Shown here in pieces: positions 25,997 to 58,989 of a DNA stretch of 64,000 nt. Source of the stretch: Pomacea canaliculata (Eukaryota > Mollusca > Gastropoda > Architaenioglossa > Ampullariidae); NCBI RefSeq assembly GCF_003073045.1, contig NC_037596.1, positions 27,874,392-27,938,391 of the forward strand, written 5' to 3'. The first letter of the stretch is position 1. Each line of letters opens with the position of its first letter. The translations under genes and the position numbers were made by a program. A model generated the notes under the pieces. It worked only from the letters and a program-made list of their open reading frames with translations, ran no database searches and was not told the DNA's origin.

Positions 25997-28900
25997 ATGG
26001 CTGTGTGGAGTCTGTGGATACTGTGTGGTGTCGCACTACTCGCTGTAAAGGTTGACTCAGGTAATAAGCTGTTATATTAGTCGAAATATTAGCTTAGCTA
26101 TGACAACGAAGACTATGATGACAATTAGGTCATAGTGTTAATTCGTTTTCTCTTCAGCTAATTTTTACTAAAATTATTTCGTTTCTTATGATAACTTTAA
26201 CCTGTGTAGATGTAACTAGGTGACTACACAAAGGCTTGAGGCAGCGTGACGCTGACAGTGTATCACTTGGTAATTATTGCCCTTATCATGGTCACAACTT
26301 GTAGTCTGTAGTTTCTTGTGACACCAAACAGGGAAGAATAAAAAACTCCTAGAACACATTCTCAGTTTTCAGTTTCCAAAACTATCCACCAACTTGAATC
26401 TGGGTCCGTACACCACTCGTTATATTAATGTTAATGGTGGATATGTTGTATTACATTAGTTAACCTAAATTTAATCATCACTATGTACAAGAAGTAGTCG
26501 ATTACAGAATTCATCATTTAAAAGCACAAATACCACACCATGTTACACATGAAACAAGTTCTGACTGTTAGCTCATTAGCTTTTCAGCCTCTCATACTTA
26601 GCACACAGGAAATGTTTTATCCCATTTAAGCTCACATTCTTTTATAGATGGATACCCTTTGGGTCAAATCTCACAACAATTATCAAGGTGTTATTTTCAA
26701 TCATGATAGCGTCGTTGTTATTTTACCTAATTATAATAAATTAGCATTTGGTTTATAATCAGGATGTTTGTTGTTGTTTCGCACTTCTCTCCTTGAAATA
26801 GGCCAAGGTCTAGTCTATACAAAAGTTTTTGTTCTCTGTATTTCTGTAGGATACTCTACTAGTTTCTTTGTTTCTAAAGAGACGTGCATGGAAGAATTAC
26901 TTGCATACTATCATTTTTTGAACCAATCCCGGTCATCCAAGACTACAGATGATAAAGAACAAAAGTGTTCTCAAGGAACTTTTTAACTGGAGCTACAGGA
27001 GCAGGGAGGGCGGTATCTGTGGGGAAGTAAAAACCAGTAAACTGACAAAAACGAGACAATTATTTTGAATTTTTATTTAACAAGTGTATTGATTTATCAC
27101 TGATTGCTTAAGTTTGTGTTTCAGCTATATACATTCGTGTTTGTTCTGACGAAAAAAGAACTGTCATAGAGGACACCAACGTGACTTTCATTTGTGGCCA
27201 ATATCAAAATCAGGTAGAATGGTCTTGGTCTTACCCTAACAACTGGCAATGGTATGGATTTGGTTCCTGCAATCGCACGGGGTGTAGGCTCTACAACGGA
27301 GTTACATTACCAGTAAAATTATCCAAATTGACTTCATCCTCTTCATGGATTTACGAGAGTCAACTTGACATCAACGTTGTTACAAGATACCAAGCATATG
27401 CTTACCATTGCCGCGATACCGACTCAGGGAGAACAGCAACGTGTGGACTACGGTTAATCGGTGAGCTGGGCTTAAATATAGTCGTCAGGCTTTAACTGTA
27501 TGATGAGTATGAGTTGTAACATACCTACAGTCATTTTCATTTTTGTGTCATTCACAGGACAAAATGTTTTGGCCTGGCCGGCTGAGGGTTGCTTGCAAAT
27601 AAAGTTATCTTTGTTTTTGTAATTTGAGACTCACTCAACAAATGCCTTTCAAAAAACTTTACTTAGAAGCAATGTTTTTGTAACTTAATCTCGTAATATT
27701 AAAAAAACTGTTATCGAATGTATATCATGATTACTTTATTATTATTTTTTCACATTGTATCTGTTTTAATTCCATCCTTTTATTCGTTTGCATCTTGTCA
27801 AAGATATATCCCTTCTAACAGGGATATAGAGTGAAGTTAGCAATATCACTATCAAATACTTGCTTGTTGTAATGATATCAAAGACAGGGACAGTACCTAA
27901 TAGATAAAGACAAAAGAAAAAGGTAGCCACACAGAAGTTAATAATATGCATCATCATCGTCGTCGTCGTCGTCGTCGTCGTCGTTGGAAGGTCTTAATAA
28001 TAAGGTATGTTTTTTTTTATTGTTTCTATAACAGCACCCGCTATCATCAGTGGTGACAGTTGCAGTGTGCGGGTCTCAAAGTGGCAGATATACGGGACAT
28101 GCGCAGTTGAAAGGATGTACGCGTCAGATGATGTTTATACTTGCATTTGGCGGAAAAACAATAATCAGGTACTCCAGCCTGAGTTTTCCTAAGTCAAATA
28201 ATTGGAAATTAATGCATATGGAAGAATATCAATCCTTTTAACCACACACTCTTCCTAATAACAGACTTGCTAATGCACAGAGATCGCTTAAGACCATAAT
28301 GACTACAGGATATTATCTCTCTCTCTCTCTGATGAAACCATGAGTAACACTGTATAACACCTTACAGTCATAATTTTTTTTTAAAATTGTGTCAAAGAAC
28401 ACGACTTTCAGAAATTTAAGGATCTGATGCAGCCATTCCATATATATATCTACATTGTATATTGTGTGAGATTTTACAAAGCGCTGGACTGTGGAACATA
28501 AACTGAAATAAACAAAAGTCACTTAAGTTTGGAAAGGTCTCAGTAAGATCCAATTAATGTCCCAAGCAATCCTGATAAAGAAGAACATAATTACTAATCA
28601 CTTTTTCCCCATATATGTTTATACGTGCATTGATTTATTTGATTCATTGAGTCATTTGATACCAAAAGATGGATGACAGAAAGATAAGATTTGTTTTTTT
28701 AGCAATTAGTCTCCCGTGTCAATATCGCTTCGGTTTCAACGTCCACATTTTGATACTTTTTTATGTTATGACAATTTGTATGTGATTATTATATTATCAT
28801 CTGCGACTAACTCGTTTTATTAAAACACTTTGCAGATCCAAGAAGGATTTCAAGAACCCATAACTTATTATACTTTTGGCTCTAGATCTTACAGAAGAGG

Positions 28901-31900
28901 AGTTTGCTCCTTTAGTCAAAATATGCCTGTTTCCCAGGGCAACTACAACTACAGCATGGATATAGATCCTGGTTCCCAGAATTTCTTCTATAAAACCATA
29001 AACATAGGTAAGATGATACGTTTAGATAATTTAAGATTAAATACAAGATATTTTAAATACTTTTAATCACTCTTACTTCCTGACAAAACATCCATTTTTA
29101 AAGCACAAATACACCGATTTTAAATATTTTTTTAAGAATTGATTGTCTCTGCCAAATCATTCGCTACGTTTACAAAAAGTTTAACACACACGTAACTCAG
29201 ATTAAATACACCAAATTGAAGGCTTCTAGTTTTGTTTATTTACAGTATCAATATATTGTTTCTCAGAAATATTACAACTAGTTTCGTATTTATATCCTTA
29301 CTCAAAACAGAAAAAAATTAACTAAAACCAGTATCTTAATCATTTTATTACTTCTTATTTAATAAGCAGTTAACCAAAATCAAATCCTCTGTGTTATAAT
29401 TCGGCACAAAAATCAAGTTGTTGTTTGTAGTAAGAGACTTTAAGTTAAAAATAAATCCCGTATATCCGATGTTATCTAAAAAAAGCCCTATAAGCTGCTA
29501 ATTAAAGTTTATATTCCCCTATCCTGTTTAAGAGGTTTTTATGATATTTTCTCACCTGTTATTTCTTTCGTGAAATTGTGACAGTCGCAACGACAATAAG
29601 ACGTAATTAGTTTCTTTAAATATTTATTGTTCAGAGGTTTGATAATACTATAACACTATCACTACCACTCTCATTTCCCAGCTTCCTATTTACTCTCTAC
29701 AAGGCTTTCTTATTATACGCTTATCATTTCTTTCGACATTTTACTTTTATTTCTCCTTTTTGTCAGTTTAAACCACTCTGTGCTCTTTCTGTACCGCCCC
29801 GTTAATGAAATCTTGCTTGTTTTGTATAGATTATCCTAGATACATTTCGTCACAGGAGTTGTTGTTCAAACAAAATCTTTACAGAAATGAAAATAACTAC
29901 ATTTATAATTAGTATTCACCATTTGGAGAATTTATATTTTACAGATATGCGTTTGTGTGTGTGCAGTTCCTCCTGATGAACCTAGCCATGACTGTCCAGA
30001 AACTGTTTTTGAGGGTTCTGACATCACTTGCAAATGTACCTCTTCAAATTTAGGAACTCCACCTGCTGAATTTGCTTGGGATGGAATTGGTACTGATACA
30101 TTATTTCTCCAAGATATTCAGCCCAAAAATACTACCATAAACTATTCATGTCGGCTGATATGGGGTCCTGACGGATATATCAACAGTTCAATTGTTTACA
30201 CTTTGCGAATAGCAGGTAAGTGTGTACTAAGTCTGTTATAAAGCTTCTTTGATGTGGTGCTAAATTCTTTTCATGTGCATGTATCTTATATGTGTAAAAT
30301 AGTAAAACAGTTGATGCTCGACTTGTTCACTTTGTGTTCGAGGAACATTGGCAGCATTATTATTTTTCTTCGACCAGCAGTGTGAAGTTAAAATTATTCC
30401 TTAAACCAATAAATACCTACCTTGCTGAACAAAGATTGACTTTTTGTATTATACTTGTAAGCGACATACCTCAAAGAAGCAAGAGTAAGGAGAAGGTTGA
30501 CTGTGATATAAATAAGACAAGGTGATTGTGCATTCGTGGTATTGCACTGTAAAAAGTTTGTTTTCTGTACCGATGATAGCTACATAATTTAATGGCATTT
30601 TATTGTATTAGATGTGTAATATATGTAACGTGTTATATTCAAAATTAATCAGATACTACCACACAATGTAAATAATATGTTTTTGTTTGTAATACTTTAC
30701 ACTCAGAAAACGAAAGAGAAAAGAACACTAAAGGAGGCATCATTGGTGGCTGTGTGGCAGCTGTTTTCATTCTAGCTATCATCGGAATTGTCATCGCTGT
30801 TTACATCGTTAAAAGGCGGAAAGGTTTGAATTTGTTTCTCTTGCTGACAAATCTTTTATAAAATGCCAAAGCTCCATCACTCCAACCGTCAAAATCTCTG
30901 TCTCCATTTCTTTTAATCTATAAACAATAGTTCTTTTAACTATTTCACTAAAAACAAGATTTAAAAAAAAATCTATCCGGATGTCTTCTTTTTAACTTGC
31001 TTTTGTCTCTTTGTAATTTTCCACTAAATACAATACAAATTTTTTTTTAAATGCACTATTAAAAGAAGTTTGTCGTTTGACGAACTAAAAATTTTACTGC
31101 GAAATTTAGCAAATCGTTTTTCAAACACTTTTCTTTCGGAATGTACTACTTGTCATTTGGTCGTTGAAAGCTGCTGTATGATTCTACTCCCTCCCGGAAT
31201 GTTTAACATCTCCATGAAACATGACTTTCCTAGTCAGGCGAGTTACTTTTCTGTTAATTAAATATAAACAATTTATGTACCATCCTTAGTGTCAGCACAT
31301 TAAACACAGTTAATAATTTGCTTGTTTTTTAGTAATACTTTTTGCATTCCAGTATCTTGATTCAGACATTTTTGTATACTAAATGCGTGCTTGTTAATGT
31401 TTTTAATATCCTCCTATGTCGATATTTCAAAATATAGGTAATATCCTGTAGAAATCTTCTACAAAATTATTTAAAATATTCAGACTACATTTTTTGAATG
31501 AAGCATCACTCATAAAACTTAAAGTGTAGTGTTTAAATGCATATAGTATTTTCTCCTTTAGCTACAAGATATTACAAATGCAGCGTCTGTATCTAAATTA
31601 ATTTGAGAAGGTGGTTAGATTTTATAAATACAACTTTCACATATATTATTATAAACTGTATAAGTTATTGGAATTTTTTAAGCTCTAAGCTTACTACAGC
31701 TTGCTGTTGATTTGCAGGAAAGTTTGGAAGAGGAAACATTAACCTGAGATTTTGGCAATGTCTTTGCAAGTTCTTTCATCAGAAAAAGCCACCAACTAAG
31801 CCACCAACTACGCCCTATGCAGTGGTCAACAAGCCCAAGCCACAGATTCCCATCAGGCGTCAGGCGGCTTCTTCCGGCGACCTCTACACTGTCGCTATGA

Positions 31901-32860
31901 CAACGACATCTAGTGACCTCAATGGCGAATATGTAACAATCTGTGAAACTAACGAGGATGCAATTTATGAAATAAACAGGGAAGGCAATAACCTGGCGAG
32001 CCAAGGCGTGCAGGAAACGACAGAATGGAGGACTGCAGTCGCGCCGGCAATGAAATCCAAACCAATGACACCAGGAACAAGAAATATCAGTGACATACCA
32101 GGTAAAAGTCATGGAACCATCCACCAATTTTAAACATCATGTTTCAGTGCCCTTGTGGGTAACAAGACAATGATAAAATGAACACAACACAAAGCTTGAG
32201 CGGCTAAAACTTTAGCCTAGTAAATGTAACACGCAATTTTATGTAAGATAACTCTGGTAAAAACAAGTAAATAGAATTAAATTGTTAATTAATTATCCAA
32301 CTTTGCGGTCAAAGGTATAATATATAAATATCAAAACAATGTAGATACAAATAAGTGTTTTAAAGATCTTTTTGTAAGTTGTAAAAATCGAATTATTAAG
32401 TAAAACGTTTTTCTATATGCAAATATACTTACCAGATTTAGTTAGATAATAAAGGACTGTAAAATTGAAATAGGAGATCGATAAAGATTTTGTTTGTCGT
32501 TTCAATGGTCAGGCTATATGAATGTCACTGAAGTACCGACTGATTCTGGTTTGGGTGTCTACCACGTGGTTGCCAGTGCTGTAACGCCTACAGGATTAAA
32601 GCCAGAAATATTGGTAAGATATCATCATCATCATCATCATCATCTTTTATTATGGGCTATTTGATAGTGCAGTATTGTTTACTAGACGCTGTAGCTGTTT
32701 CTTCTAAAGTATGTACATATCACTAATAAAATGCATGTTTAAACAGAACAATCATGAAGCAGGGATTTCAGAAGAGGAATACCATGCCCTACACTTTGAA
32801 GAGGATCGGACTGCACAGGAGGACCAAGCTTCTACCTACCACCATCTGCAACATGAATAA
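25997..32860 (+). CDS. Ig-like receptor gene C (three Ig-like domains, YMNV/YHHL tail)
   Basis: Nine exons: 25997-26060, 27125-27460, 28035-28168, 28836-29007, 29967-30215, 30707-30823, 31718-32101, 32513-32613, 32747-32860 (556 aa). Signal peptide MAVWSLWILCGVALLA. Domain 1 has FICGQY, VEWSWSY and AYHCRDT. Domain 2 is split over two exons by a phase-0 intron (GDSCSVRVSKW, then GVCSFSQNM). Domain 3 has CKCTS, FAWDG and YSCRLIW. The membrane exon has GGIIGGCVAAVFILAIIGIV, then KRRKG. Tail tyrosines are TPYAVV, DLYTVA, GEYVTI, AIYEIN, GYMNVT (Grb2-SH2-type), GVYHVV, EEYHAL and STYHHL (fits the ITIM consensus). The long cytoplasmic exon carries a 12-bp in-frame duplication (PTKP) that gene E lacks. 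AATAAA overlaps the stop codon; a second signal lies near 33450. A second tail set follows at 33883-34451. I infer a single-pass immune-type receptor; no named family was recognised. Confidence 0.9.
27957..27984. repeat. GTC trinucleotide run
   Basis: Nine copies of CGT/GTC just upstream of exon 3 of gene C. Gene E has CAT/CATCAT runs in the corresponding intron instead. Confidence 0.9.
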
Positions 32861-33882
32861 AGTATAAAAACTATATTTAACACTACAGTGCAAACATTTA
32901 CTTTAATAACAAATATTCTGCACGAGTGTAAAGTGCATTTCTATGAACTGATTTAAGCAATAGATTGATCACATTTGATTTACCCAAAACCACCTTATGT
33001 AGTAACCGAGCGAAAAAAAAAAGTGAACAACGCTCTAGGCTAATTTAAAGGATGCTTTTCTTAAAGTTTGCTGCTTCTGACAATTATCAAAAGTTAAGTT
33101 TCTATGTTATGTATAAACTTAAATATATATATAACTACTCTTTCACACTCTAAGGTAATTTTATCTAGTGTGTGGAATTTTTTTTTTTAAGTTTAACATA
33201 TGCATGTCAATATTATAATATCAAATGTTGTCCTTCATTTGAATATTGTTACTTCTTGCCTTATATGGAGTAGTGAAACGCCTATGAAATTTTTAAATCA
33301 TAATATAAGATTGTGACAAAAGATTTTCATCTATATTGAATGTTTTAACTGTTTGAGTATTTTTGTTGAGCTAACTGTCAGTTTCTCTTGTATGTATCTT
33401 ACCTGGAAATTCATAAAATACTGATTGTGATGTTGGTTTTAAGTAAAAAGCAAATAAAATAATGAAATCTCTTCAGCATTTGTGTTATTTTTATTAAAAT
33501 TTGGTTTTGGTCCTGAAGTGTGTTCTTCGAATTACTACAGTTAAAACAAATAATTGTGTTCCCTATTTTATTAGTTATCTACTCCTCCTAGCCTCTTTTG
33601 TTTTTCATATTTTTTCTTTATCTTTGTGTGTATTTTATTGAGTTTACTTTTTAATTACAGAAGTAGGAATGTTTTTAACTATTTTTATGAATAGTCATCT
33701 CTAGCACTAATAGTCGGACAAAAACACATTTGTCATTACTAAACAAAAAGCAATCGTGATGCTGACAAACATTTTACAAAGCTCTGTTTTTAATTGTCAC
33801 ATATTTCTACACAAGGAACATATTTCTGCCTGGCGTGTCGTCTTTTATGGCTATACAAACAAGGATTTCTTTATAATTGTAG

Positions 33883-34451
33883 CTCCATTGTACGACACAG
33901 CCAGACGACCTGCCAACAACGAACACAGTTATGATGATCTCACCCAGAAATCAGGTGACACACCCCAGTCGCCAGGTACATTATGGTGACATATCCTTCA
34001 AGCTACAATGTGTTTATTACACCTAGCATACAATATTATTTTACTTTTGTTTCCAAGTTTGTTCTCCAGTAAAAAGCATAAATATTGTATTATTTTATTA
34101 TATTCATAATATCTTGTACACAAAACATAACCGTACTGTTTTTTTAACGATCTATTTATCTACTGACTCAGAAATTAGGGATGGCATGATTGCAAATGAC
34201 AATCATTGCTACGAGGAAGTGATTCTGGAAAGACCAAATGCAACACAACCTACAGGTATAAGTAATATCATCAAAAAATAATCTTTACAAACCTTTTTTG
34301 TGAAACAATGCAAATCTATTAACTTTAAATTATGTTAGCTTTCGCGAGTTTTTATCTTTATCTTTTGGAAACTTTTATATTATTTTTTCTATTTTTTCTA
34401 GTCGCAATATTTGTTGTGCCGAGGACGTCTCAGACTGTTTCAAGTCCTTAA
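33883..34451 (+). CDS. Alternative tail cassette of gene C (three exons)
   Basis: Exons 33883-33975, 34172-34255, 34402-34451, each with consensus acceptors (TTGTAG, CTCAG, TTTCTAG) and phase-1 junctions, ending in TAA. Joined to the long cytoplasmic exon (ends 32101, phase 1) they give APLYDTARRPANNEHSYDDL, then HCYEEVILE, then VPRTSQTVSSP, a 560-aa receptor. The YMNV exon ends in phase 0, so it cannot be spliced in frame to this cassette: use of the two tails must be exclusive. Polyadenylation signals lie at about 34570. The same cassette follows D and E, and the D version is clearly diverged yet keeps its splice sites, lengths and tyrosines. There is no signal-peptide exon in between, so a separate gene is less likely. 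Confidence 0.75.
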
Positions 34452-34958
34452 AAGTTTACACACTGCGGTGGAAAGTCACACTGGCTGTGCTTGAATGTCA
34501 CGGAATCACTCTAACAAAACATTGTGTACTTTGAAAAATGGCGCTGGAAGAAAATGAGCAAAATATACATAATAAAAAGATTGTTTTCCATTTGCTGGTG
34601 ATGAACATAGACTTGTTCCAGTCACAATATTTCTAAAAGTAAAAGGTTTTTACGATGAAAGTACTGTAGCAGAATAATATCGTTACTATATTAAATCTTT
34701 ATTGTGACTTCTTTCGTTGTTTTTGTTAAAAGGCTTTTTTAACGTTTGAAATTTATTTACACACATATATGTTCACTAGAAAGCTGGTAGTATTAATTTT
34801 TTAACAGCTTATAAACTATTTTAGAGCCAAAGAAAATGTCCTTCTTTCCTTTTCGGATGTCTGACTCCTTACTTTGTTCTTTCTCTATTTCTCTTGCAAA
34901 ATACGAAGTGGACCACTTAACAGAAGTCACCTTCCTATAAAACGCTCGGATGAGGCTT

Positions 34959-36573: not shown

Positions 36574-39500
36574 ATGGCTGTCTGGAGACTGTGGATACTG
36601 TGTGGTGTCGCACTGCTGGCTACAAAAGCATGTTCAGGTACTTGGCTGTTTTAACTTATTTGTCGAAACAATACACGTACTACTCTACACGAGATTACAA
36701 CAAAATACCATGGTGATAAATAGTTAACTGTGCTTTTTCACTTCAGTCAGTACATAAAGCTACCAGAACCTTTTCGTTTTTATTTTTCATAAGCGCTTTA
36801 AATAATGTAGAATTATGTGTGCCTTAGAAAAGTTTCTTCGTCTATCTTTCGCGACTAACAAGGTTAAGGGAAGGGGGAGTAGAGTGGATGAAACAAAGGA
36901 CTGGCAGTGGTACATGTTTGTCCAAACACGCTCTCAAGTTACACAGCAAACAGGGCGAAACAGAGTTTAGTGACACATCCTGTTGCGACTTCCACGAAGT
37001 ATTTAACAGTTTATTACTGAGAAATGCTAGTAAACTAAAACATTTTGAACTCGTTTTAAACGACGAGAGAATGTAAACAATACTTCCTAATTCCTAATAA
37101 TCCTAACCTGGACCTTGACACTTTCTTAAATACTATTTCCATTTAAATCGTTCCACAGCTTATCGCTGAAAACAGAACCTAGTGCCTGCTGAGAGCTATT
37201 TCATACAAGATAAATATTTTAAATTCTAGATTAGTTGCTTCTTTAAGCCCATCGATGTGAGTATTTGATCAATATTATTATAATCATTTTGAACCATTCT
37301 TTCCGGATAGTTTCGTTTTATTTAACCTATTGATACTTTATGTCTTGTGGTATTGCGAATCATGATATATCCCTTTAACTATCTTCCTTTCTTAGAGATT
37401 GGATAGTAAACTTATTTTTGTTGTCAAGGCATCTCTTGTCAATGTTTTCTGTCAGTTATTTAAACTTTGACTGCTAGCTTCGCTCGCGCCTTTGATATCC
37501 GGAATAAGCTATTAAAGCGCTTATCTGCCATCAGCAGACCGCGTTTTCGGTTTCCTGTGGTCCGTTTAGAAGTGGATTGAGTTTGGTACTGTAGTCCTAC
37601 TGAGGCCTCTACTCTCCTCTATTGACTTTAAAACAACCGCACACCAAACAATATTGCTAGCAATTATGTCCTAAGCTGTCTCCTGCTAATTCACCAGTGT
37701 TGGTCAATTTGTTTTTCTTTTTATTTAGATAGGTAGTGTTTTACTTAGTTAGATCATTCTAGCTTGCAGAGTACTCTGTATATCATACAGATTAATGACT
37801 TAAATGATCACACAAAGCGAAGGTTTTAAGGTGATCACTGAATAACAGTGAAGTAATTACTTAGATGTCCTGATTGTAAAACCCTGTTTCGAACGAGGTC
37901 AGCTACCTACTGGACGGCTGGGTCAGATACGAGAAGGTCACAAACAGATAGTTCATTTTTGTATCCCAAACTTGCGACACATTAAGCAGCGAACTATCAA
38001 AGAAAAGTTTTTGATAAAGTATATTGATTAAAAAATTAAAAACTCGTTCTAAATTAAAACAAATATGATACTAGATTTCTTACCTTGCCAGAGAAATTTC
38101 AATTTTGAGTAAGTGCTTTCATTAAAATTTTTAATTTTTTCAGGACTGAAAATACCCGAACTACTGTTACTTTTATTAAGAAACAGAATTTTTTTAGTTC
38201 TTTACTTGTTATTGTTAGGAACTGTTACGTATTTTGATTGTTATTATATATTGATTGTTACGTATATTGTCAGGTTAATAAGTATTTACAATCATTATCT
38301 TGTTGCAGGTTTAATTATCGGCGGTTGTGAACAGGGTAGTGTGGACGTTGTTGAAGACTCAACTCGCTCTTTTACATTTGAGCCATACCAGTACAATCCA
38401 GTACAAATTACGGCTCATAATGACAAGATGGAAACCATTTTCTTTTGTTCTTGCTTTAAACTCGACTGTACAGCTTATAACAACACGTTTAAATTGTTTA
38501 AACTCTATTATTCTGTAACGAACAATAATTATATTTTACAAGTGAGCGGGATCACGAGGAACTCAGCTCGTACCTTGTCTTTCAGCGATTCCTTGAATTA
38601 CGCACGGTGTGAATTTAGAATAATTGGTAAGTATTGTAGAACACATTGTAGAGTACTATGTACCATTGTTTTCTGTCCACCTTAATGGGTTGTTTGCTGT
38701 AATACTACTTGCATTTACTCTCTCATTCTCTTTCTTTCTCTTACGCATGAGCTTACGTGTATATATATATATGCAAAATGAACTCTAGAAATTAACAGAA
38801 GAAATGGTATTATTACAAGCAAACCACTTTAAATGATTGTTAAATGGTTATGAAATTATGAGTAAACGTAAATGCAAAATTATCACGATAACATAATATA
38901 TGTGTTTTTTCACCCAACGATGATGTCGCACTTCGATTATATATATAAGAAAGAGAAGGAGATAGAGACAAGAAACAGTTAGATCAATCTCTTTAAAAAT
39001 ATTTTAGATAACCATTAAATAATAATCCTGATAACATATACATATATAAATATATATGAAGAGGTAGAGAAAGAAACAGTTTAATATTTAAAAAGATATT
39101 TAAGTATAAAGCGACATAACTAATAACTCACAAAGGCAGAAAAAGAAATTGAATAAAATAAGTAAATACTTAATTTTGAGATGAGCATTTTTTAAAATAA
39201 AAAAGGTTAACAGAAATTTTGTTTAAAAAAATAGTAAATAACATGATTTTTGGTAAAGTATTTATTAGAAGTTATTAATATATTCCAGAAATATAGCACC
39301 CACGTGAATATATATCTATATAAAATTTAACCCCTTACTGTAGATAATGTTGCAAAATATATAAATGCATTTAATAAACATATATTTCATCCAGTGGCGC
39401 CGGTGTATTCACCTGGTGACTGCAGGGTAAGTATTTCAAACTGGATGGTGATTGGAAGCTGCACAGTGAAAAGAATGTTTTCTTCAGACAACAACTACAC

Positions 39501-42500
39501 GTGCAAATGGAGGGACAATGAAAACAACGAGGTAAACGTTTCTTTTCCCGATTTTGTTGTTGATATATTTAGTTCCTCTCACTCTATAATATTATCAAAT
39601 TCATAAAACATACCTCTTCTTGCACTTTTCTTCAACATATCCCTTTTTCACTTCCACTTTTATACCAAGAGAACATGTGATCGTAATATTTTCATATTGT
39701 TTAGCCCAACACAATATTTATTTAGTATAAAAAAAGTGTAAACCACTTTCACAGAATTTGGAGGTGCACTTGAAATGTTGATATATACATCATAGAAAGT
39801 TCAAATGTTATGTAACAATCATCATATCCCTTTTTTCAAGGAATTCGGGGGTTTTGGAACCACGCTGAGGAATTACACTGCTGTGAACTCAAGGACTTAT
39901 ACTAAAGGAGTTTGCTCTTTTGCAAAACCAATTCCCACAACTAAAGGCTATTATACGTACAGTGTAAGCGTATCACCCGGTGCTGATGATTACTTCAATA
40001 AAGAAGTATATATAGGTAAGAAGGCTTTCTATGACAACCACATTTATGTTATGCAAAACGTTAATATCTGTAAATAAAAAATACGTTTTGGTTGATAATA
40101 TCGATAGGGAGAAATTTAAACCCAATGCAGGTTAAAAAAGCGACAAAGTTTTCCCGAAGACAGGAAAGTCACATGAACGAAGACAAAGAGCATCTCAAAC
40201 AGAAACATCCTTACCCTGTGCCATTTAGACAGGGAATGTAAAATCAGCCCAAATAATGGATAAATTATAAATATTAAATGTATTTGCTTAGGAGAGAGTG
40301 TCGCCCACAGAGCTAGTCTAAAAAAAATATTTCTGTCACCATTGAGCTCTGTTTAACAATTGTAATGATGTGTGGCTGTTCTGGAACCAGTAGAGTTTAC
40401 AAAGATGTAAGATTTGTGGAAATGTTACATTTTAAATATATTTTTGTCGTCTTTCGTTATTATTGATTGTGAGGAATCAATCACACTCCCAAAAACTCTC
40501 TTCAGATATGTCTTTTTTAATAATATTGTCATCATTGAGGGTGTACTGGACAGTTTTGTTACTCACTACATTTTTATGAAACAAGTAGTTCAGTACCGCT
40601 GAAGTAGATCTCTGTAGGAAAAATGTTTATGATTCCTCGTTCAGATAAACAAATTTTAACGCATTGGCTGTTTTTTTTCTATTATAAGCTGCGCCATATG
40701 TGGTAAAACTCAACCACAGTTGTCCTGAGTATGTATTTGAGGGCTCAGATGTAAGATGTACATGCTGTGCTTCAAGACACATAAATCCACCAGCACTTCT
40801 AGTGTGGGAAGGAATGAATAACGCAACTCTTCTGCTCCAAAATGTAAACCGGCGATTAAACAAACAACAATTCACATGTCGACTAGAGTGGCACCCAGAC
40901 GGCTCCCTTAAAGAAAGCATTTCTTACAAACTCACCGTTGCTTGTAAGTAAATCAGACACACACAAAGTAAGGCTAACCATTACAAGGTGAAAATACTCG
41001 TAATGTATCATGGGGAACCGGATTTTAAATGTAAAGGATGCAAGATAAAGAAAACATGTTTTTTCTGCAACGAAGAGTAAAGATAACAAGTAAGTACATA
41101 AAAACCATAATGAAAAGAATACTGTAACTGACGGTAAATAAGGATTTTCTACTTTTTTCTTATAATTCGAAAGATTAATTTCTAAAAGTTATTGATTATA
41201 GTTTATAAATATTTCTAGATGGACCCTTAAATGTTGTGATCACCAACAATGAAAAGAAGACAGAAGATGAGTCAGAGATGATAAGTTTAACCTGCACAGC
41301 GACTGATGTTTATCCCTCCGCAGCTTTTCAATGGAATGTCACGTGTTCTAATCAGACTGACTCTTGGAATTCCAGTACATGTTTCTTCAACTTCACTCAG
41401 AAGTTTGAAAGTATTTCGATATTATGTACAGCTAGCAACACATATTTTCATCAAGAGTATGCTTCAAATGTCTACGTTCTTTCTTCTTCTGGTAAATAAA
41501 AAAGTTCGAACAATTTTTTTTTAGTTTTAAACAAAAGACAAGGGTTTAACTAGAGAAGAATGAAAGGTATCTTTAAATTTGCAAAAGTTTTTTTTATCAT
41601 TTTAAACGGATTACATATAAAAAATGTTCCACAAAAATCTCGTTATCAAGACTTTTACTGACCCTTACATTGTCGCTATTGCTCGTTTGTCTGTCAATAA
41701 GTTGTTTCTTTTGAAACTGAATTTTTAGTTTGAAAATCTAGCGATATCATGCACAGCTAATAACAGATATCCCCATCAAGCATATGCTTCACATAAAAAC
41801 ATCCTTTATTGTACAGGTCAATAAAACTTGCAACGCTTTTTGTTATTTTGAAACTGGAACAAAGGAACTAAAATAAGAATTAAAATTATTTACCGTATAT
41901 TGCCTTCACGAGGTAGGATGTAATACTTTGCAACAACGTACAGTCTCTTTATATTTTAAACTCAGTAAAAATGTAAAACATGCTCCAGAAAATAAATTAC
42001 ATTTTGTTATCCAAAATTTACTGGCAGTAAATTTGTTTATATTAGTTGCTCGTCTGTCTATAAGGTGTTTATTTTCACGCCGCCTTAGATCAATTTCTTT
42101 TTTTATTTTTTTAGAAAGCCAGCAAGCGAGCACAGGTGGACCTAATGCCGGGTTAATTGGTGGTGTTATTGCAGCTGTACTTGTTGTACTCATCATAGTT
42201 GGAGTCTTGATTGTGTACATCATCAGACGAAGAAAAGGTAAAAACGTCTGACATTCTCCACCTAAACCCTTAGAACTTCTAACTCCTATCTATTTTTTTT
42301 TTATTTTTTTATATTTAATCTACAGCGCAAATGGTAATGACATGTGAAGCCCTAGTTCAAATATTCTATTTACCTAGCTATCTACATATTTCGCTTTTCT
42401 AATTCTTTTCTGTATTATATCGAATACTCTTTCTATCGTATGATGCATGCAGTAACAAATAATCTTTCCTTTTCACAAGTTTCAGACAATTTTAAAGAAT

Positions 42501-44231
42501 TGAATAAATATGTACATTGACAGTATGTTTGCTTTATAGAATCTAATATTTTGTGAAATGCTAAAGAAAAAATATAAAAAGCGGCACGTTATCGCCTTGT
42601 TTTTTCCTTTGACATCATCGTTAGTTTTCGACTTTACAAGAAATGCTTTAGTCGGGTCTACATCTCCTTAAAGTTTACATATTTGTTAAACACATCGCTT
42701 CTGTTTGGACAATCCAATGTCAGGCGAGTGTATTTTCTCATCTTTATCGCGTACATTGTAAGGAATAGAGTCTAGTAAAAGTTACTTAATGTGCCTGTGA
42801 TTATTATTAATAAAAAAATCGTTACAAAAATTATAAAATACAATTTGATTTCTTTCAGGTACAATAAACCATACATCTCCTTTATTTTTTCATTTGTATG
42901 CACTTGTTTTTGTGCTTGATATAAGTTAAGTTTTATTATATAATTTATAACGTCAATTAATTCCTCGTTTGTGAGAATTAAATGCTTTTGATTATATAGT
43001 TATGTATACCCTAATGTAATGTATCTTGTTATGTATAATTTACATAGGTCATAAAAGTAACAAGTTTCCAACGTCCGAATACAAAACTCTTAATAAATTA
43101 TAACACATTAACGTACTGGTGTTTGATATCTTGCTTAACTACAGGGACACTAGACAGAGAGAGAGGTTTCTTTGGATTTGTTTCTGGCGCCCGCAAACAT
43201 TATCAGAAGGAAACAGCTATGCCAGTGCCATACGCTGTCGTCAATAAGCCACAGAGACAGACGCCAATCAGACGAGAAGCAGGTCCTTCAGGTGACATGT
43301 ACACAATCACTAACACAACCAGTTCCGGTCACGTGGTAGATGTCTATGCGGCGGTCTGTAAAACCTCCATCAACAACACCGGTGGAACAGAGAGTGATGG
43401 CGCTCACCAGACAACTCAAAAGACGCAGCAAACAACAACAGCATCGAAACAAACAACAAAGCCAACGCTAAATCTAAACAACAAGAACGTCCAAGATTTG
43501 CATGGTAACAATGAACGTCGTTCACAATATGATAAGATGTCACAAACTATTTGATGGATGTAAAAGAGGCAATCAAGACATATAACAAGTTTTAAAATAC
43601 AAGAATAGGATTGAAAGAAAAAAAATGCCAGTGATTTAAAAAATCAATGATCCAATCATAACGATAACACAGAGACCTGTATCCTAATGAGTTTGTAGAT
43701 ATATGCAAACATACACGTAAACTTGCGCAACTATCCGTCGATTAATAACAACATTATATAAATAATCAAATTAAAAATCGTTCTTTAATTCAGACACAGG
43801 TTACATGAATGTCACTGAGGTGCCGACTGACTCTGGTTTGGGTGTGTATCATGTTGTTCCCTGGGCAACAATGTCTGGATCACCTCTACCGGACACAAAC
43901 GTAAGATTTGTCTTAAAGACATCCATCACAGACGTTTTTTTCTGCGACAAAGCTTTTATTTTAAATGCACCCAAGAAAAATGTTCTTGTTTTAGTTTATC
44001 AATTTTAGTTTTAAAACAAAGATATTTGTTCTATATTGATAGATGTATTTATAAAAACATATTTACAACATTTTATTACAACCTGTAACTTATAATGCCA
44101 TTCACTTATTGAAACAGGAATATTCATTACCGGCAATTTCTGAAGATGAGTACAATGAACTACATTTTGAAGAGGATCGAACTGGACAAGAGGACCAAGC
44201 CGATAACTACCACCATCTTCAAATCACATAA
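36574..44231 (+). CDS. Ig-like receptor gene D (four Ig-like domains, YMNV/YHHL tail)
   Basis: Ten exons: 36574-36637, 38309-38626, 39395-39531, 39841-40015, 40689-40943, 41219-41491, 42115-42237, 43145-43504, 43794-43900, 44118-44231 (641 aa). Signal peptide MAVWRLWILCGVALLA. Domain 1 (GLIIGGCEQGSVDVVED) is of the gene-A type, but the first Ig cysteine is replaced (SFTFEP). Domain 2 is split over two exons, as in C and E. Domain 3 has CTCCAS, LVWEG and FTCRLEW. An extra domain 4 (SLTCTATD, FQWNVTC, SILCTAS) is absent from A, B, C and E. The membrane exon has IGGVIAAVLVVLIIVGVLIV, then RRRKG. Tail tyrosines include VPYAVV, DMYTIT, DVYAAV, GYMNVT, GVYHVV, DEYNEL and DNYHHL. AATAAA signals at about 44317 and 45318 could end this form; a second tail set lies at 45799-46448. 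Confidence 0.9.
41729..41816 (+). pseudogene. Relic second copy of the domain-4 exon in gene D
   Basis: Starts after TTTTTAG and reads FENLAISCTANNRYPHQAYA, ending at ACAG|GTCAAT. It matches the second half of exon 41219-41491 (FESISILCTASNTYFHQEYA). The first half is missing, so it cannot supply an Ig domain. It shows that the domain-4 exon was once tandemly duplicated. Confidence 0.75.
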
Positions 44232-45798: not shown

Positions 45799-46448
45799 AC
45801 CCAGTGTATGACACGACCAGGAGGCCTGAAAACAACGAACACAGCTACGTGGACCTCGCTTTAAGGGGACGCAAATCATCACCACCAGCAGGTAGCTGAG
45901 TATAAGCATCCATTTTTATCATTGCTCTCTTTAAACAACTAACAATGGCGGCATTCCTTTTATGTACATAATGAAAGCAAAATTCAGTTGAGTATCGCGA
46001 TATAGCCCAAGCCATAACACAAAACAAGCACAACACATCAACAACAGCAACAACAAACTGATACAACTCGTGCAGAACCACCAGCTTCACTAATGTTACA
46101 TTCGTTGTGCAGGATCTGACGATGACAAGGCTAAAAGAGAAAACAAAAATGAGCATTGCTACGAAGAAGTAACCATTGCAGGTCAAAATGTGTCTGAACA
46201 ACCAGGTAACATACCATACATAAAATATTGCTCTTATATTTAAAATGTGATAACAAAGCTGATAATTGTGCATAATGACTTATATTTTGCAAAATTATAT
46301 TTAAAGGCATACTGCTTAGAAATGAGAACCATAGTGAGTATTTTAGATGAGATAAATAGTTATAATAAAAGAGCATCTACAACAAGGTCTCATTAATAAA
46401 AGTTATTTGTTATAATTTCTTCTAACAGAACTGGTAATCCCAGACTGA
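45799..46448 (+). CDS. Alternative tail cassette of gene D (three exons)
   Basis: Exons 45799-45891, 46113-46205 and 46429-46448, all phase 1, ending in TGA. They read DPVYDTTRRPENNEHSYVDL, then HCYEEVTIAG, then ELVIPD and stop. Joined to the exon ending at 43504 (phase 1) they give a 636-aa receptor. The sequence is well diverged from the C and E cassettes (DDL to VDL, a different middle, a shorter end), yet exon count, phases and tyrosines are kept, which argues for function. AATAAA lies near 46615. Confidence 0.75.
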
Positions 46449-47662
46449 TTTATGAGAACCGACTTCTACAACTGTTCCAAATCTGTAAATACTGTACACA
46501 GACTGATTGGCAAAGCACTAGAGGTCGTCCTGGATTTTTAAAAGTTGAAACAGCCTTCATTGATTATTCGACTTAGTGGCTTTTCATTGATGACTATATC
46601 AAACATGATCTCAAATAAAAAGACACATTTTCGAATGTTTATGCCTAAAAGAAAAATATGTTAGTATCTTTAGTTGTGAGTCTCAAATGGACTTGTCACA
46701 CAAAGTTTTACATCAATATTTAGTCTCTGTATTATCAATCGTATTTCGCTGCTCTCAAGTCTTGATTATGTTTCTTCCTGTTTGTTTTTCATTGATTTTA
46801 TATAAGCATAACAGTAAAATGGCATATTACATTAAATTACAATAATTATGTAATGTCTATTATATTGTACGTATACTTTTGTAACCACTTTTTTGGTATA
46901 CCCGTGTATATATACACTTAATTATCTCAGACGCTTATTTTACTCAGTTTGGAGACAAGTAAGTTTATTTATGATGCTCTTTAAATAGACATATTTTTAG
47001 CTTTGCTTATAAACATGATATATATTGTGTTTACCATTCTGTCATTGTATCTTTTTTTGATCGCATTTTTTCTCTCTTTCTATCCCTCCTCTCTCTAATC
47101 CTCCTTAGTTTATAAAAAAATCATACTTAATAAGTGACATTTCTACTTCGATTAAAATCGTTCACATTCAACTCCTCTTCAAACTCTCGTCCCGCCCTGA
47201 CACGGTGGATAGCAGTTAATTCAGCTACAAGCTCCATTATTTGGTTGACGAGTGTCATTTCTTATCTCCACTCACATTCCTAAAGCGTCAGGTTAATTGT
47301 TTTGAACATAAAGCTGCCTGGAGTTGATACATTTATTTTAAATTAACTGCCTAGTGTGACATCATCATAAACTTGCATTAATACAAACTGTATGTAATAA
47401 ACTGAGCAGCAACTGGGTAATTAAAATTTAAAATATATATATGTATATTTCATGCTTGTTTTCGCTAATGCTGATTAAAATGTTCTCACGACTCACGATT
47501 GTGTGATTTGTAATTGAAATTTCGGGTAAAATGACAAAAAACAGTCCTTTGTGTCTATAACATGAAACTTCTCGACCACAAATTATGGTAAGGAAGTCGG
47601 TTTAAATATAATAGCTTTCATTCATCACTTTGTTCCCTTTTTTATTTCAACCTGTCGTAAAC

Positions 47663-49936: not shown

Positions 49937-52430
49937 ATGGCTGTGTGGAGTCTGTGGATACTTTGTAGTCTCGCACTACTCTCTGTAAAGGGCGACTCAG
50001 GTAATAAGCTGTTATATTTATTTGTCGAAATATTAGCTTTACTATAACAACGAAAGACTATAGTGACAAATACACAATAGTGTTTATTTTCTATATCTTT
50101 ATCTAAGGTTCTCTAGAATTACTTAGTTTTTTAATGATAACCTTTAGCCCTGTGTAGATGTAACTAGGTGACTACACAACAAAGGCTTGCGAGAGCTTCA
50201 CGCAAACAATGTATCACTTGGTTGTTAATGCCCTTATTATGATCACACCTTGCTTCCTGCAGTTTCTTCTGAGAGGACACACGAAAGGACAGCAAACGCA
50301 TAGAACGCATTCTCAGTTTTTAGTTTTCAAAACTATCAACCAACCTTAGTCTGGGTCTCTACACCAAGAGTTATATTGATGTTGTTGGTGTATATATTGT
50401 ATGCCATTAGTGACCTAAATGAAATAATAACTATGTATAAGAAGTAGTTGATGTGAGAAGCCATACTTTACAATAACAAATACCACAACAAGTTTCACAT
50501 GAAACAAGTTCTAAATACTAGCTGATTAGCTTTTGAACCTCTTATACTCAGCAGACAGGAGATATCGTATCTGCTCACTCACTTATTTACATGAATACCC
50601 TCTGGATCACATCCAACTACAATTCTCAAAGTGTTATTTCATATCATGATAAAATTGTGGTATATTTTACCTTATAATAAATTAACATAAGCAGTTGTAA
50701 TCAGGATTTTGTTGTTGTGTTTCTTTCTTCCTTCCTTGAAATAGGCCAAGGTCTAATCTATACAAAAGGTTGAGTTCTCTCTATTGCTGTAGGTAACTCT
50801 ACTAGGTAGGTGTTTTTTAAAAGTAAGAGACATGCATCAAAGAATTACATCCGGTACACGGACGTTTCGCCGACGGACGTTTCGCCGCCGGACGTTTCTT
50901 CGCGGGGCACTTCATTTCGGCATTTCACGCGGGACCTTTAGCCGAAGTCAAGCCCCTTAGCTCACACATTTCTCTCGCCATTGTATCAATGTATCAGTGA
51001 ACTCTCTCTCACTATCCCTCTTCATGTGAACCGTTAGCTCACACATTTCTCTCGCCATTGTATCAATGTTTTTTCTCAAAGCTGTTGCGCATAATCTGTG
51101 ACAATCAAAGTGAACTGTCTGTGAAGTCTGTGTGTAAAATTTGTTTGAAATAAAGAATTATTGTGTAATCTAGTAGTTACTTTCATTCTTTGAGAAGTAA
51201 GTAAGCTCTCTCTCTCTGACATAATGCGGCGAAACGCCGGACGGCAAAACGTCGACTCCGAAACGTCCGGCGGCGAAACGTCCGGTCGGCAAAACGTCCG
51301 CACACGTTACATCCACACGATTGTTTTATTTTAATTAATCCCTATCATCCAAGACTACAGATGATAAAGAACAAAAGCGCTCTGCAAGAATTTACACACC
51401 ATAGCCTCTAAACTTCGGTAATCAAAACCAGTATTCTTATTAAATTGACATTGATCGGTAAAAAGTGCAAGCGATTTGTAGGTCTCACACACACACACTA
51501 ATGCACTGGCTTGTCTTTAAGGTGATCTAAGATAGTGGTAGAAAATTACGACAGGTAAATTGAGTTGATGGTACTTATATTAGTAGGAATATATATATAT
51601 ATATATATTATGGATATCTATGGAAATAAGGAATAGGAAACTGATCAAAGAATTAGCATTGCAAAGGAGAAGGAGGGAAGGATGTATATGTGGGGAAGTA
51701 AGAGCTAGAAAGTTTCAAAAAGGATACAATGATTTATAATTTGTATTTAACATGTGGATTATTTTACCACAGAATGTAAATGTTTGTGTTTCAGCTATGT
51801 ATATTCGTGACTGTTCTGATGAAAAAAGAACGATCATAGAGGAAACTAAAGTGACTTTGATTTGCGGCCAATATCAAACCAGGGTAGAATGGTCTTGGTC
51901 TTACTCTAACTGGCCGAGGAATACAATTGGTTACTGCAATGTCACAGGGTGTGGCATATACATCGGACTTAAATTACCAATAACATTATCCAAATTAACT
52001 ACATCCGTCTCAGGGATTTTTGAGAGTCGACTTGACATCAGCGATGTTACAAGACAGCAAAACTATTCTTACCATTGTCGCAATACCGACTCGGGAAAAA
52101 CAGCAACATGTGGATTACGGGTAATCGGTGAGTTGGACTCTAAAAAAATATAGTTGTCAGGCTTTAACTGTCTAATGAGTATGAGTTGTAATATACCTAC
52201 AGTCATTTCCTTTTTTACGTGATTCACAGGACAAAAATTAACGGCCTAGCCGGTCGAGAGTAAGTTGCACAAGAAGTTTTCTTTATACCTATATTAATGT
52301 TTTACTTTGTATGTAATTTGGGACTGACTCAAGGAATGCCTATTCAAAACTGTACGTAGAAGCAATGTTTTTGTAACTAAATCTCATATCATTAAAAAAA
52401 ACGTTGTTATCGAATTTATATCATACGTAC

Positions 52431-52491
<61 letters not shown>

Positions 52492-55400
52492 ATCATCATC
52501 ATCATTATCATCTGTTTTTATTGATTTGCAACAACGTAGCCATGTCGAATTTTCATTCTAATATTAAAATTTAAAAATCAGTCAGTAAACATGCACCATC
52601 AACATCATCATCGTTATCGTCATTGAAAGTGCTTTGCTTGAAATTATATTATCAATAATAATATTATGTCACTGTTGCTTTAACAGCACCTGCTATCATC
52701 GTTGGTGACAACTGCGATGTGCGGGTCTCAGAGTGGCAGATATACGGTTCATGCGCAGTGGAAAGGATGTACGCGTCGGATGGTGTTTATACTTGCATAT
52801 GGCGCGAAGACAATACGAAGGTACTCCAGCCTGAGATTTCCTAAGTTAAATTAATTGAAAATGAATGCATATGGAAAAATATCAATCCCTTTAATCACAC
52901 ACCCTTCCTAATGACAGACTTTCTAATACACAGAGATCAATAACAACAACATGATATTACCGCTCTCTAAGGAAACCATGTCCAAGTATAACTCCTTACA
53001 GATTTTAAAAAATCATGTTAAAGAACACGACTTTTAGAAACTAGACGATCTGATGCAGCTATTCCATACATTGTATAATGTGTCAGTTATAACAAAGCTC
53101 AAGACTGCAACAGAAGCTAAAATAAACAAACTGACCTAACTTTGGAAATTTCGCAGTAAGATCCAATTAAGATGTCAAGCAATCCTGAAGAAATAGAGCA
53201 TTTATACTAATATTTTTTTCTATCTCTTTTGATGCGTGTCTTGATCCATTTAATTTATTGAGTCCTTTGAAACAATAAGATGGATAAAAGGAAGATAATA
53301 TTTGATTATTTAGCAATTAGTCTCCTGTTTCAATATTGCTTCGGTCTTAACGTCCACATTTTTATACATTATGGCAATTTGCATGTTGTCATTATATTGT
53401 CATATCTGTTGAACTCGTTTTATTCAAACACATTGCAGATCCATGAAAGATTTCAAGATACCATAACTTATTATGTCTTGGACTCCAGAATTTACGGAAG
53501 AGGAGTTTGCTCCTTTAGTCAAAATATGCCTGTTGACCAGGGCAGCTACACCTACAGTATGGATATAGATCCTGGTTCCCAGAATATCTTCTATAAAACC
53601 ATAAATATAGGTAAGATGATACGGTTAGCTAATTTAAGATTAAATACCAGATATTTTAAATACTTTTAATCACTCTTTCTACCTTACAAAAATACCCATT
53701 TAAAGTACAAATACAATCTATTTTGAATAATGTTTTCAAGAATTGATTGTCTCCCAACTCCTTAGATAATTCTACATAAAATATAAACACACACGTCACG
53801 TCATAAAAGGACTTAGCATAAGTACATAAAATTGAAGGTTTGTACTTGTGTCTATTTACATTATTATATGTATTTTCTGTCATAAATATTACAACTAGTT
53901 ACTTATTCATATCCTCACTCAAAACAGAAATAAATTAACAAAATTCAGTATGATATCATTTCATTACTTCTTTTTTAATAAGCAGTTATTCAAATTAAAT
54001 TTTTTGGTTTTATAATTCAATACAATAATCAAGTTCTCGTCTGTAGTAAGAGACTTTAAGGTTAAAAATCAGTTCCGTATGATATCGTCTAAAAATAACT
54101 CTAAGCTGCTAATTAAAAACTTCTTTTCTCGTATCCTGTTTAAGAGTTGTATTATGATAGAGGTTTTATAATACTATAATGCTATAATTACCAGCCTCCT
54201 TCTCCAGCTGCCTTTGTATTCTCTACAAGGTTTTCTTATTATACTCTTATCACTGTTTTGGACCATTTACTTTTATTTCTCCTTTCCGTTATTTATGACC
54301 ATCCTGTTTTCTTTCAGTACCGCCCCGTTTCTGAAATCTTGCTTGTTTTGTAATAGATTATCCTAGATAACTTTTTTCGCTAAGAAGTTGTTGTTCAAGC
54401 AAAATCTTTACAGAAATTAAAATAGCTTAATTTATAATTAGCTATTAAACACATGATATTAATATTTTAAAGAGTTTACAATTTACATATATATATATGT
54501 GTGTCCAGTTCCTCCTGGTGAACCTAGCCACGACTGTCCAGAAACTGTTTTTGTGGGATCCAATGTCAGCTGCAAATGTACGTCTTCAAATCCAGGAACT
54601 CCACCTGCCGAATTTGCTTGGGATGGAAGTGGTACTGATACATTATTTCTCCAAGATATTCGGCCCGAAAATACCACCATCAACTATTCATGTCGGCTGA
54701 TATGGGGTCCTAACGGATATATCAACCGCACAATTGTTTACACTTTGCGAATAGCAGGTAAGTATATCTTGAGTCTGTTATAAAGCTTCTTTGGTCTATC
54801 TTTTTCAGTGCATGAATCGTATATGTGTAAAGGAGTGAAAAACAGTTATTGCATGGCTTTGTCAGTTGGTGTTCGAGGAACATAGGAAGCATCATTTTGT
54901 CTGTTACACTCTTATTAGTCGATAGAGCAGTGTGAAGTTAAGTAATAAAGTCTTCTCCTTAAACTTGCAATACCAGACCTCTGTAGACAATGATTGACTT
55001 TTGTATTATCCTTGTAAGTGACATACCTCAAGAACAAGAGTAAGGAGAAGGTTGATGTTTATAATAAGAGAAGGTGATTGTGCTTTTGTCCTGTAAAATT
55101 CCGTTTCTATATCGATGATGGATATATAATTTAAAAACATTTAATAGTATTAGATCGGTTAATATTTGTAACATGTTACATTCTAAATTAATCAGATACT
55201 ACCACACAATGTAAAATAATATGTTTTTGTTTGTAATATTTACATTCAGAAAACGAAAGAGAAAAGAACGCTAAAGGAGGCATCATTGGTGGCTGTGTGG
55301 CAGCTGTTTTCATTCTAGCTATCATCGGAATTGTCATCGCTGTTTACATCGTTAAAAGGCGGAAAGGTTTGAATTTGATATTCTTGCTGACAATTTTTTT

Positions 55401-58426: not shown

Positions 58427-58989
58427 CTCCATTGTACGACACAGCCAGACGACCTGCCAACAACGAACACAGTTATGATGATCTCACCCAGAAATCAGGT
58501 GACACACCCCATTCGCCAGGTACATTAGGTGACGTATCATCAAAGCTACAGTGTGTTTATTACACCTAGCATACACTATTATTTTATTTTTTGTATTCAA
58601 GTTTGTTTTCCAGTAAAACGCATATTTTATTATTATATTATATTCGTAATTTCTTGTACACAAATCATAACCGTACTGTTTTTTAACGATCTCTATCTAC
58701 TGAATCAGAAATTAGGGATGGCATGATTACAAAGGACGAACATCGCTACGAGGAAGTGATTCTGGAAAGTCCAAGTGCAACACAACCTACAGGTATAAGT
58801 AATATCATCAAAAAATAATCTTTACAAACCTTTTGTGCAACACTGCAAATCTATTGACTTTAAATTTTGTTAGCTTTCGTGAGTTTTTACCTTTATCTTT
58901 TGGAAACTTTTATATTATTTTTTTTTCTATTTTTTCTAGTTGCAATATTTGCTGTGCCGAGGACGTCTCAGACTGTTTCAAGTCCTTAA
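58427..58989 (+). CDS. Alternative tail cassette of gene E (three exons)
   Basis: Exons 58427-58519, 58709-58792 and 58940-58989, phase 1 throughout, ending in TAA. They read APLYDTARRPANNEHSYDDL, then HRYEEVILESP, then AVPRTSQTVSSP. Joined to the exon ending at 56652 they give a 555-aa receptor. Differences from the gene C cassette include CYEEV to RYEEV, with the tyrosine kept. AATAAA is near 59080. Confidence 0.75.

Follow-up and report, generated by a model that had tools for sequence, protein, structure and literature searches.

Can a single receptor gene hold two alternative signalling tails behind one ectodomain? This question is raised by three genes, referred to as C, D and E, in a 64,000-nucleotide stretch of the Pomacea canaliculata genome (contig C7, positions 27874392-27938391; hereafter the window). 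Features are given in window positions, and loci are designated by their position in kb on C7. A first-pass annotation, made from the letters of the window, had proposed that in these genes a tail with YMNV and YHHL sites is followed, after its stop codon, by a second three-exon cassette, and these exons and their phases were confirmed. Genes C, D and E read as full receptors, with a signal peptide, an ectodomain, a transmembrane (TM) exon, a long cytoplasmic exon, a first tail (tail 1, exons t1a and t1b) and a second tail (tail 2, exons t2a, t2b and t2c). The idea of one ectodomain with two tails is supported by gene layout, reading frames and the constraint on tail 2, and C, D and E are considered as probable two-tailed receptor genes, in which either tail would be spliced to one ectodomain and TM exon. 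That one gene uses both tails is what we infer from gene layout and constraint.

Exon anatomy and reading frames of genes C, D and E

The exons of the three genes are as follows, together with the tail of gene A, which is located in the same window. Open spliced frames gave four ectodomain exons in C and E and five in D.

25997..26060, + strand, gene C signal-peptide exon (spliced frame)
27125..30215, + strand, gene C ectodomain exons (27125-27460, 28035-28168, 28836-29007, 29967-30215; open spliced frame, GT-AG)
30707..30823, + strand, gene C TM exon, phase 1 end
31718..32101, + strand, gene C long cytoplasmic exon, phase 1-1 (TPYAVV, DLYTV, EYVTI)
32513..32613, + strand, gene C t1a (YMNV), phase 1 to 0
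32747..32860, + strand, gene C t1b (YHAL, YHHL, stop)
33883..33975, + strand, gene C t2a (LYDT, SYDDL), phase 1-1
34172..34255, + strand, gene C t2b (YEEV), phase 1-1
34402..34452, + strand, gene C terminal tail-2 exon t2c (VAIFVVPRTSQTVSSP, stop)
36574..41491, + strand, gene D signal-peptide and ectodomain exons (36574-36637, 38309-38626, 39395-39531, 39841-40015, 40689-40943, 41219-41491)
42115..42237, + strand, gene D TM exon
43145..43504, + strand, gene D long cytoplasmic exon, phase 1-1
43794..43900, + strand, gene D t1a (YMNV)
44118..44231, + strand, gene D t1b (YNEL, YHHL, stop)
45799..45891, + strand, gene D t2a (VYDT, SYVDL)
46113..46205, + strand, gene D t2b (YEEV)
46429..46449, + strand, gene D t2c (ELVIPD, stop), the least certain exon
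49937..50000, + strand, gene E signal-peptide exon
51795..54757, + strand, gene E ectodomain exons (51795-52127, 52687-52820, 53439-53610, 54509-54757)
55250..55366, + strand, gene E TM exon
56281..56652, + strand, gene E long cytoplasmic exon, phase 1-1
56968..57068, + strand, gene E t1a (YMNV)
57252..57365, + strand, gene E t1b (YHAL, YHHL, stop)
58427..58519, + strand, gene E t2a (LYDT, SYDDL)
58709..58792, + strand, gene E t2b (YEEV)
58940..58990, + strand, gene E t2c (stop)
3588..4911, + strand, gene A long exon with t1a and t1b, a tail-1-only gene (the window scan gave no tail-2 match further downstream)

The long exon (384, 360 and 372 nucleotides in C, D and E, phase 1-1) follows a TM exon ending in phase 1. 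Exon t1a (101, 107 and 101 nucleotides) runs from phase 1 to phase 0 and t1b from phase 0 to its stop, while t2a (93 nucleotides in all three genes) and t2b (84, 93 and 84 nucleotides) are both phase 1-1 and t2c runs from phase 1 to stop. The two 93-nucleotide exons announced for D, with their phases kept, are thus t2a and t2b. As for the motifs announced for the second cassette, SY(D/V)DL and YEEV were recovered in all three genes and LYDT in C and E, D reading VYDT instead. The uncertainty of the D-type t2c comes from 27971, where a further terminal site stands in frame that is absent from D and 27943. Exons t2a and t2b share their phases, their length in D and the pattern EHxYxx[LV] (window 45799-46205 and equivalents), and t2b resembles a repeat of t2a that has since diverged. 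Between C and E (window 34172-34255 and 58709-58792), t2b was seen to be changing fast around a fixed YEEV, and t2a differs by one. In the first intron of gene E (window 50850-51300), GGACGTTTCGCCG-like words are repeated by eye in both orientations, and may represent a small mobile element.

In 3/3 genes, both tail sets can be read in frame from one and the same TM exon. Four spliced products (ectodomain + long exon + tail 1, ectodomain + long exon + tail 2, ectodomain + tail 2, and ectodomain + tail 1) are each open to the terminal stop in C, D and E, and the splice sites of either tail read GT-AG in all three. Joining ectodomain, long exon, t1a and tail 2 leads to internal stops in all three genes, and t1b itself ends in a stop, which rules out inclusion of t1a and tail 2 together; only one tail set per transcript can be read in frame, as had been claimed. 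Since the long exon is symmetric (phase 1-1), tail 2 could join either the long exon or the TM exon. The first-pass annotation had attached tail 2 to the long exon; in all three genes this joint keeps the frame, and so does the TM-t2a joint. The annotation also gave each set its own polyadenylation signals: AATAAA is present downstream of t1b and of t2c in the three genes, and carries little weight alone because by our own estimate it is expected about once per 0.7 kb in 33% GC DNA. Such signals, too frequent in AT-rich DNA, were rejected as proof.

Genome-wide distribution of the two tails

Protein searches were performed over the whole 440-Mb, 24-contig assembly; only the best candidates were scored, so that locus counts are lower bounds. 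A tail-2 query from C and a diverged tail-2 query retrieved the same t2a loci, at least 18 in number and all on C7 (17 at 27.71-27.99 Mb and one at 24.45 Mb). Loci were sorted into classes by profile scans of their flanks, with at least 3 kb scanned downstream as a requirement for the tail-1-only class. At least 13 loci are dual (24448, 27706, 27738, 27801, 27834, 27856, 27867, C, D, E, 27943, 27957 and 27971), 12 of them within one cluster and one more than 3 Mb away. At least 11 are tail-1-only (24280, 24301, 24332, 24345, 24440, 24476, A, 28000, 28006, 28015 and 28023), 28006 having t1a without t1b, and in five tail-2 loci no tail 1 was found (27716, 27725, 27811, 27844 and 27990). Tail 2 lies downstream on the same strand in 13 of the 24 tail-1 loci, which is more than chance, and starts about 0.7-1.7 kb behind tail 1. 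The long exon was found in 11/13 dual loci, that is, in every one whose long-exon position was covered. Across the dual loci, t2a has an open frame in 13/13, an AG acceptor in 13/13 and a GT donor in 12/13, and the t1b stop is present in 13/13.

Weak tail-1 matches at 24587299 (E 1.4), 27603434 (E 4.6) and 27580226 (E 5.8) were dropped before counting, as were gene B (t1a E 0.043) and an inverted lone t1b in the window. Gene B (window 10043-11089) has a TM exon close to its long exon and a very diverged t1a. The lone t1b exon (window 17201-17311, - strand) is of C type with its last tyrosine replaced by Cys, and is likely a pseudo-exon.

Constraint on the tails of dual genes

Under a codon model, omega in dual genes was 0.30 for t2a (13 loci, p=1.9e-8), 0.55 for t2b (10 loci, p=0.025), 0.33 for t1a and 0.22 for t1b (13 loci each), values obtained from 31-37 codons and on trees built from the same exons, which is a reservation to be held against the two-tailed reading. 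The t2b alignment omits 27706, 27856 and 27867 (short, shifted or not found) and 27725, 27811 and 27844 (stop); the tail-1 alignments omit 24280, 24301, 24332, 24345 and 28006, with 28015 and 28023 in t1a only. Between members of four sister pairs (C-E, D-27943, 27801-27834 and 27738-27856), tail-2 exons showed 39/807 differences (4.8%) versus 1010/9252 (10.9%) in noncoding DNA (p=4e-9). Judged by these comparisons, tail 2 is constrained in dual genes. Across the 13 dual genes, tail-1 distances are moreover correlated with t2a distances (r=0.73, p=0.0001), as expected if both tails stay in one gene.

Single-tail sister loci and their breakpoints

In four of the five tail-2-only loci (27725, 27811, 27844 and 27990), t2a is located directly behind a TM exon, with no long-exon or tail-1 match between the two, and the TM donors are nearly identical to those of dual relatives. 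From gene layout, tail 2 would therein be the only tail behind a receptor TM exon. The 27990 model has 8/8 GT-AG junctions and is free of stops from signal peptide to t2b, consistent with an intact receptor; its exon boundaries were hand-placed after gene D, and the terminal exon lies outside the model. Upstream of 27725, matches to five ectodomain exons were detected and a signal exon was not found; the upstream flank examined for 27811 and 27844 is short. The ectodomain exons matched by 27990 and 27725 are those of dual D and C, respectively, and these genes thus combine related ectodomains with different tails.

About 2.3 kb of dual 27738, containing the long exon, t1a and t1b, are missing from the three 27725-type loci, which have about 0.3 kb of unaligned sequence instead. 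The match extends about 132 bp into the intron after the TM exon (in 27844, it stops 30 bp earlier than in the other two) and resumes 210 bp before t2a. Locus 27990, compared with D, looks like a separate loss of the same kind on a D-type background. On the other side, tail-1-only 28000 stays aligned with D, 27943 and 27971 across the spacer; about 0.7 kb, which in those loci contain t2a and t2b, are then missing before the alignment picks up again. That 28000 also lost the t2c acceptor was considered and is weakened, as the second in-frame terminal site of 27971 has its counterpart AG kept in 28000; from these alignments, the loss of t2a and t2b is the only firm one of the losses considered in this locus.

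The alignments suggest that tail 1 was lost twice and tail 2 once, and a dual ancestor with losses on both sides appears as the simplest reading. It is formally possible that the gaps instead reflect insertions in the other lineages.

Weighing of the two-tailed reading

A series of observations weighs against the two-tailed reading. In the older pair C-27957, t2b (19/75) and t2c (12/51) diverge at the noncoding level (362/1498), and in D-27943 t2a (9/93) is no less diverged than noncoding DNA (197/2564). As a whole, t2b is weakly constrained, C and E differing there by 7 nonsynonymous and 0 synonymous changes. Dual locus 27867 (L017, C7 27868920) reads GC for the t2a donor GT and its t2b was not found, so that its tail 2 may be decaying. 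In loci 27725, 27811 and 27844, a stop precedes the tyrosine of t2b, and tail 2 would end at that stop; in 24280 (outside the alignments), the second t1a tyrosine is replaced by His. A weak t1b-like stretch, HFEGDRTG (C7 27991700-27991759; tblastn E 0.12), lies 1 kb downstream of the t2b of 27990 (L020); it was missed by the profile scan and is perhaps a displaced tail-1 remnant, in which case 27990 would be rearranged rather than simply deleted. Finally, counting tail losses on the t1 tree was given up, the tree being too weak (9/14 inner branches open).

Some of these points bear on the possibility that tail 2 in dual genes is an unused leftover, for instance of a former downstream receptor without ectodomain. 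The decay in 27867 and the weak t2b constraint fit with it, and so does 27716, an apparent orphan tail-2 copy, given that no TM match occurs within the 1.5 kb upstream examined and that it aligns to 27706 only from inside the spacer. A leftover would nevertheless have to account for the constraint on tail 2 in dual genes, for t2a splice sites kept in 12/13 dual loci, and for both tails persisting, with order and strand kept, in lineages whose spacers are no longer alignable. We consider it very unlikely.

The spacers bear equally on whether tail 2 could instead form a small gene or transcript of its own, with a promoter and a start located in the t1b-t2a interval. The 13 t1b-t2a spacers, compared across six lineages, gave no blastn match (E 1e-3) and no tblastx match (E 0.01), and the best match of a signal-peptide exon within them had E 0.33; no shared spacer exon thus argues for an own start. 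Moreover, t2a begins in phase 1 behind an acceptor and lies right behind the TM exon in four sisters, against the objection that tail 2 is never joined to receptor exons. A separate gene is consistent with the distance of tail 2 from tail 1 (about 0.7-1.7 kb), and a short or fast-evolving first exon could escape detection; it is nonetheless most improbable in our view. Tail 2 as the 5' exons of the next gene was rejected on the four sisters with t2a behind TM, and on the signal exon of D, which lies 2.1 kb past the t2c of C.

The two-tailed reading would operate as an alternative-last-exon switch. The near tail (long exon, t1a and t1b) would offer a number of tyrosines together with a YxN site, and the far tail (t2a, t2b and t2c) acidic Y-D-T, ExxYxxL and YEEV sites. 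A transcript would either include t1a and terminate at the near 3' end, or bypass t1a, with t2a being joined to the phase-1 donor of the TM exon or of the long exon, the reading frame making the tails exclusive. Since both tail-2-only lineages with a TM exon also lack the long exon, TM-t2a may be the natural joint; it would swap the entire cytoplasmic part, with a long-t2a joint still possible. A version of the two-tailed reading, the probability of which overlaps with that of the whole, has tail 2 used after the long exon, so that the isoforms share juxtamembrane tyrosines and diverge just at the end. The frame is kept across this joint in all three genes, and the long exon is present wherever its position was covered in dual loci (11/13). 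Tail 2 seems not to need the long exon in the tail-2-only lineages, and yet its absence there is compatible with a long-t2 form in dual genes; this version is retained tentatively, as a possible one.

Ectodomain fold and tail motifs

No Pfam family was above cut-off for the ectodomain (Ig_2 at E 0.17 for C). The domain encoded by exon 5 is predicted as six beta strands (pLDDT 82.4), and its profile gave weak matches in the PDB (best E 0.021), of which 24/25 among the matches listed belong by name to the immunoglobulin superfamily (IgSF). The modelled ectodomain is therefore likely Ig-like.

In the tails, all 7 of 7 majority-tyrosine columns are invariant over the aligned loci: two in t2a (18 loci), one in t2b (12), two in t1a (19) and two in t1b (17). 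The tyrosine of t2b is the sole invariant column of 31. YxN is present in 18/19 t1a and absent from t2a (0/18) and t2b (0/12), and [DE]xxYxx[LI] occurs in 17/18 t2a and 17/17 t1b. SH2 domains are known to have preferences such as YxN for Grb2 and YEEx for the Src family. The two tails thus likely differ in their partners, as far as their motifs predict, and different SH2 proteins docking on their phosphotyrosines would give one ligand two outputs, a proposal that builds on these motif differences.

A scan of both tails for the canonical immunoreceptor tyrosine-based activation motif (ITAM; Yxx[LI]x6-12Yxx[LI]) was negative (0/18 tail-2 loci, 0/19 tail-1 loci), which rules out a canonical ITAM receptor. 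The corresponding inhibitory (ITIM) and switch (ITSM) motifs were searched as [SIVL]xYxx[ILV] or TxYxx[IV], after trimming the long exons of D, E, 24448, 24476, 28000 and 28015 at their 5' ends. They were found in 6/17 long exons (ITSM in C, E, 27738, 27856 and A; ITIM in D), with scattered matches in tail 1 and two in tail 2. Within the two-tailed reading, these motifs, together with [DE]xxYxx[LI] in t2a, would suit opposite outputs, tail 1 being inhibitory and tail 2 activating, as in a true paired receptor made by tail choice. We regard this version as unlikely: ITIM or ITSM is present in 6/17 long exons, [DE]xxYxx[LI] is also found in 17/17 t1b, and neither tail has a canonical ITAM.

A possible route from a splicing choice to a gene pair

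The origin of paired receptors, whose ectodomains match while their tails differ, is an old question. Dual, tail-1-only and tail-2-only loci stand in one cluster, and some breakpoints are readable, so that the route from splicing choice to gene pair is testable here. We give about even chances to the view that the cluster catches a two-tailed gene splitting into single-tail genes, dual genes being ancestral and tails having been lost at least three times. Paired receptors would then arise by dividing an alternative-splicing switch between gene copies, the loss of one tail set fixing sisters with only one output. To our knowledge, molluscs lack antibodies and T-cell receptors; if the tails signal through tyrosine phosphorylation and the family has an immune role, as we suppose, a mollusc would gain a clustered receptor family with many copies tuning output by tail choice.

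Comparison with known receptor systems

Paired receptors (KIR, LILR, SIRP and the teleost LITR) are clustered, with related ectodomains and different tails split between genes. The snail cluster likewise combines related ectodomains with different tails; it differs in that 13/18 tail-2 loci have both tails in one gene, beside single-tail sisters.

The following systems are compared on the available portions of the cited sources. In CD46, splicing of exon 13 gives the CYT-1 and CYT-2 tails (PMC5064401), so that one gene has two alternative cytoplasmic tails, by a single-exon choice in a single gene; the snail genes have multi-exon cassettes with their own stops, in a tandem family. In Drosophila, splicing yields ITAM and ITIM versions of Draper (Draper-I and Draper-II) with opposite effect (PMC4503800, PMC13148388). 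Receptor output is set there by alternative splicing, through an insertion within the ITAM in Draper-II, whereas in the snail whole tails would alternate, with no canonical ITAM. CEACAM1-L and -S and the equine CEACAM paralogues have tails with or without ITIM/ITSM, and splicing after duplication diversifies tails (PMC5856374); the alternative is a short tail without motifs, in contrast to the two snail tails with conserved tyrosines.

Among invertebrates, Dscam of Penaeus monodon has mutually exclusive tail exons, with two alternative stop-bearing exons and an ITAM lost by splicing (PMC6851185). Compared by description, it is an invertebrate IgSF receptor, and its exclusive tail exons recall those proposed for the likely Ig-like snail receptors; it differs as a single large gene with a hypervariable ectodomain. 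The oyster CgIgIT2, described in a review (PMC11999971) which cites a title calling it an inhibitory receptor, is a mollusc IgSF transmembrane receptor with a tyrosine motif. By that description it resembles the snail receptors, themselves likely Ig-like, from which its five Ig domains and ITAM set it apart, alternative tails being unmentioned in the review section concerned.

In the mollusc and Pomacea receptor literature, mostly open papers, no title or abstract among the matches listed describes a two-tail family in snails, and the words transmembrane and tyrosine have no occurrence in the available portion of an apple-snail immunity paper (PMC9178244). Tail choice by splicing is already known from CD46, CEACAM1, Draper and crustacean Dscam; new, as far as the open literature shows, is a clustered family in which dual genes stand beside sisters that are fixed for one tail or the other, and in which some breakpoints can be read.

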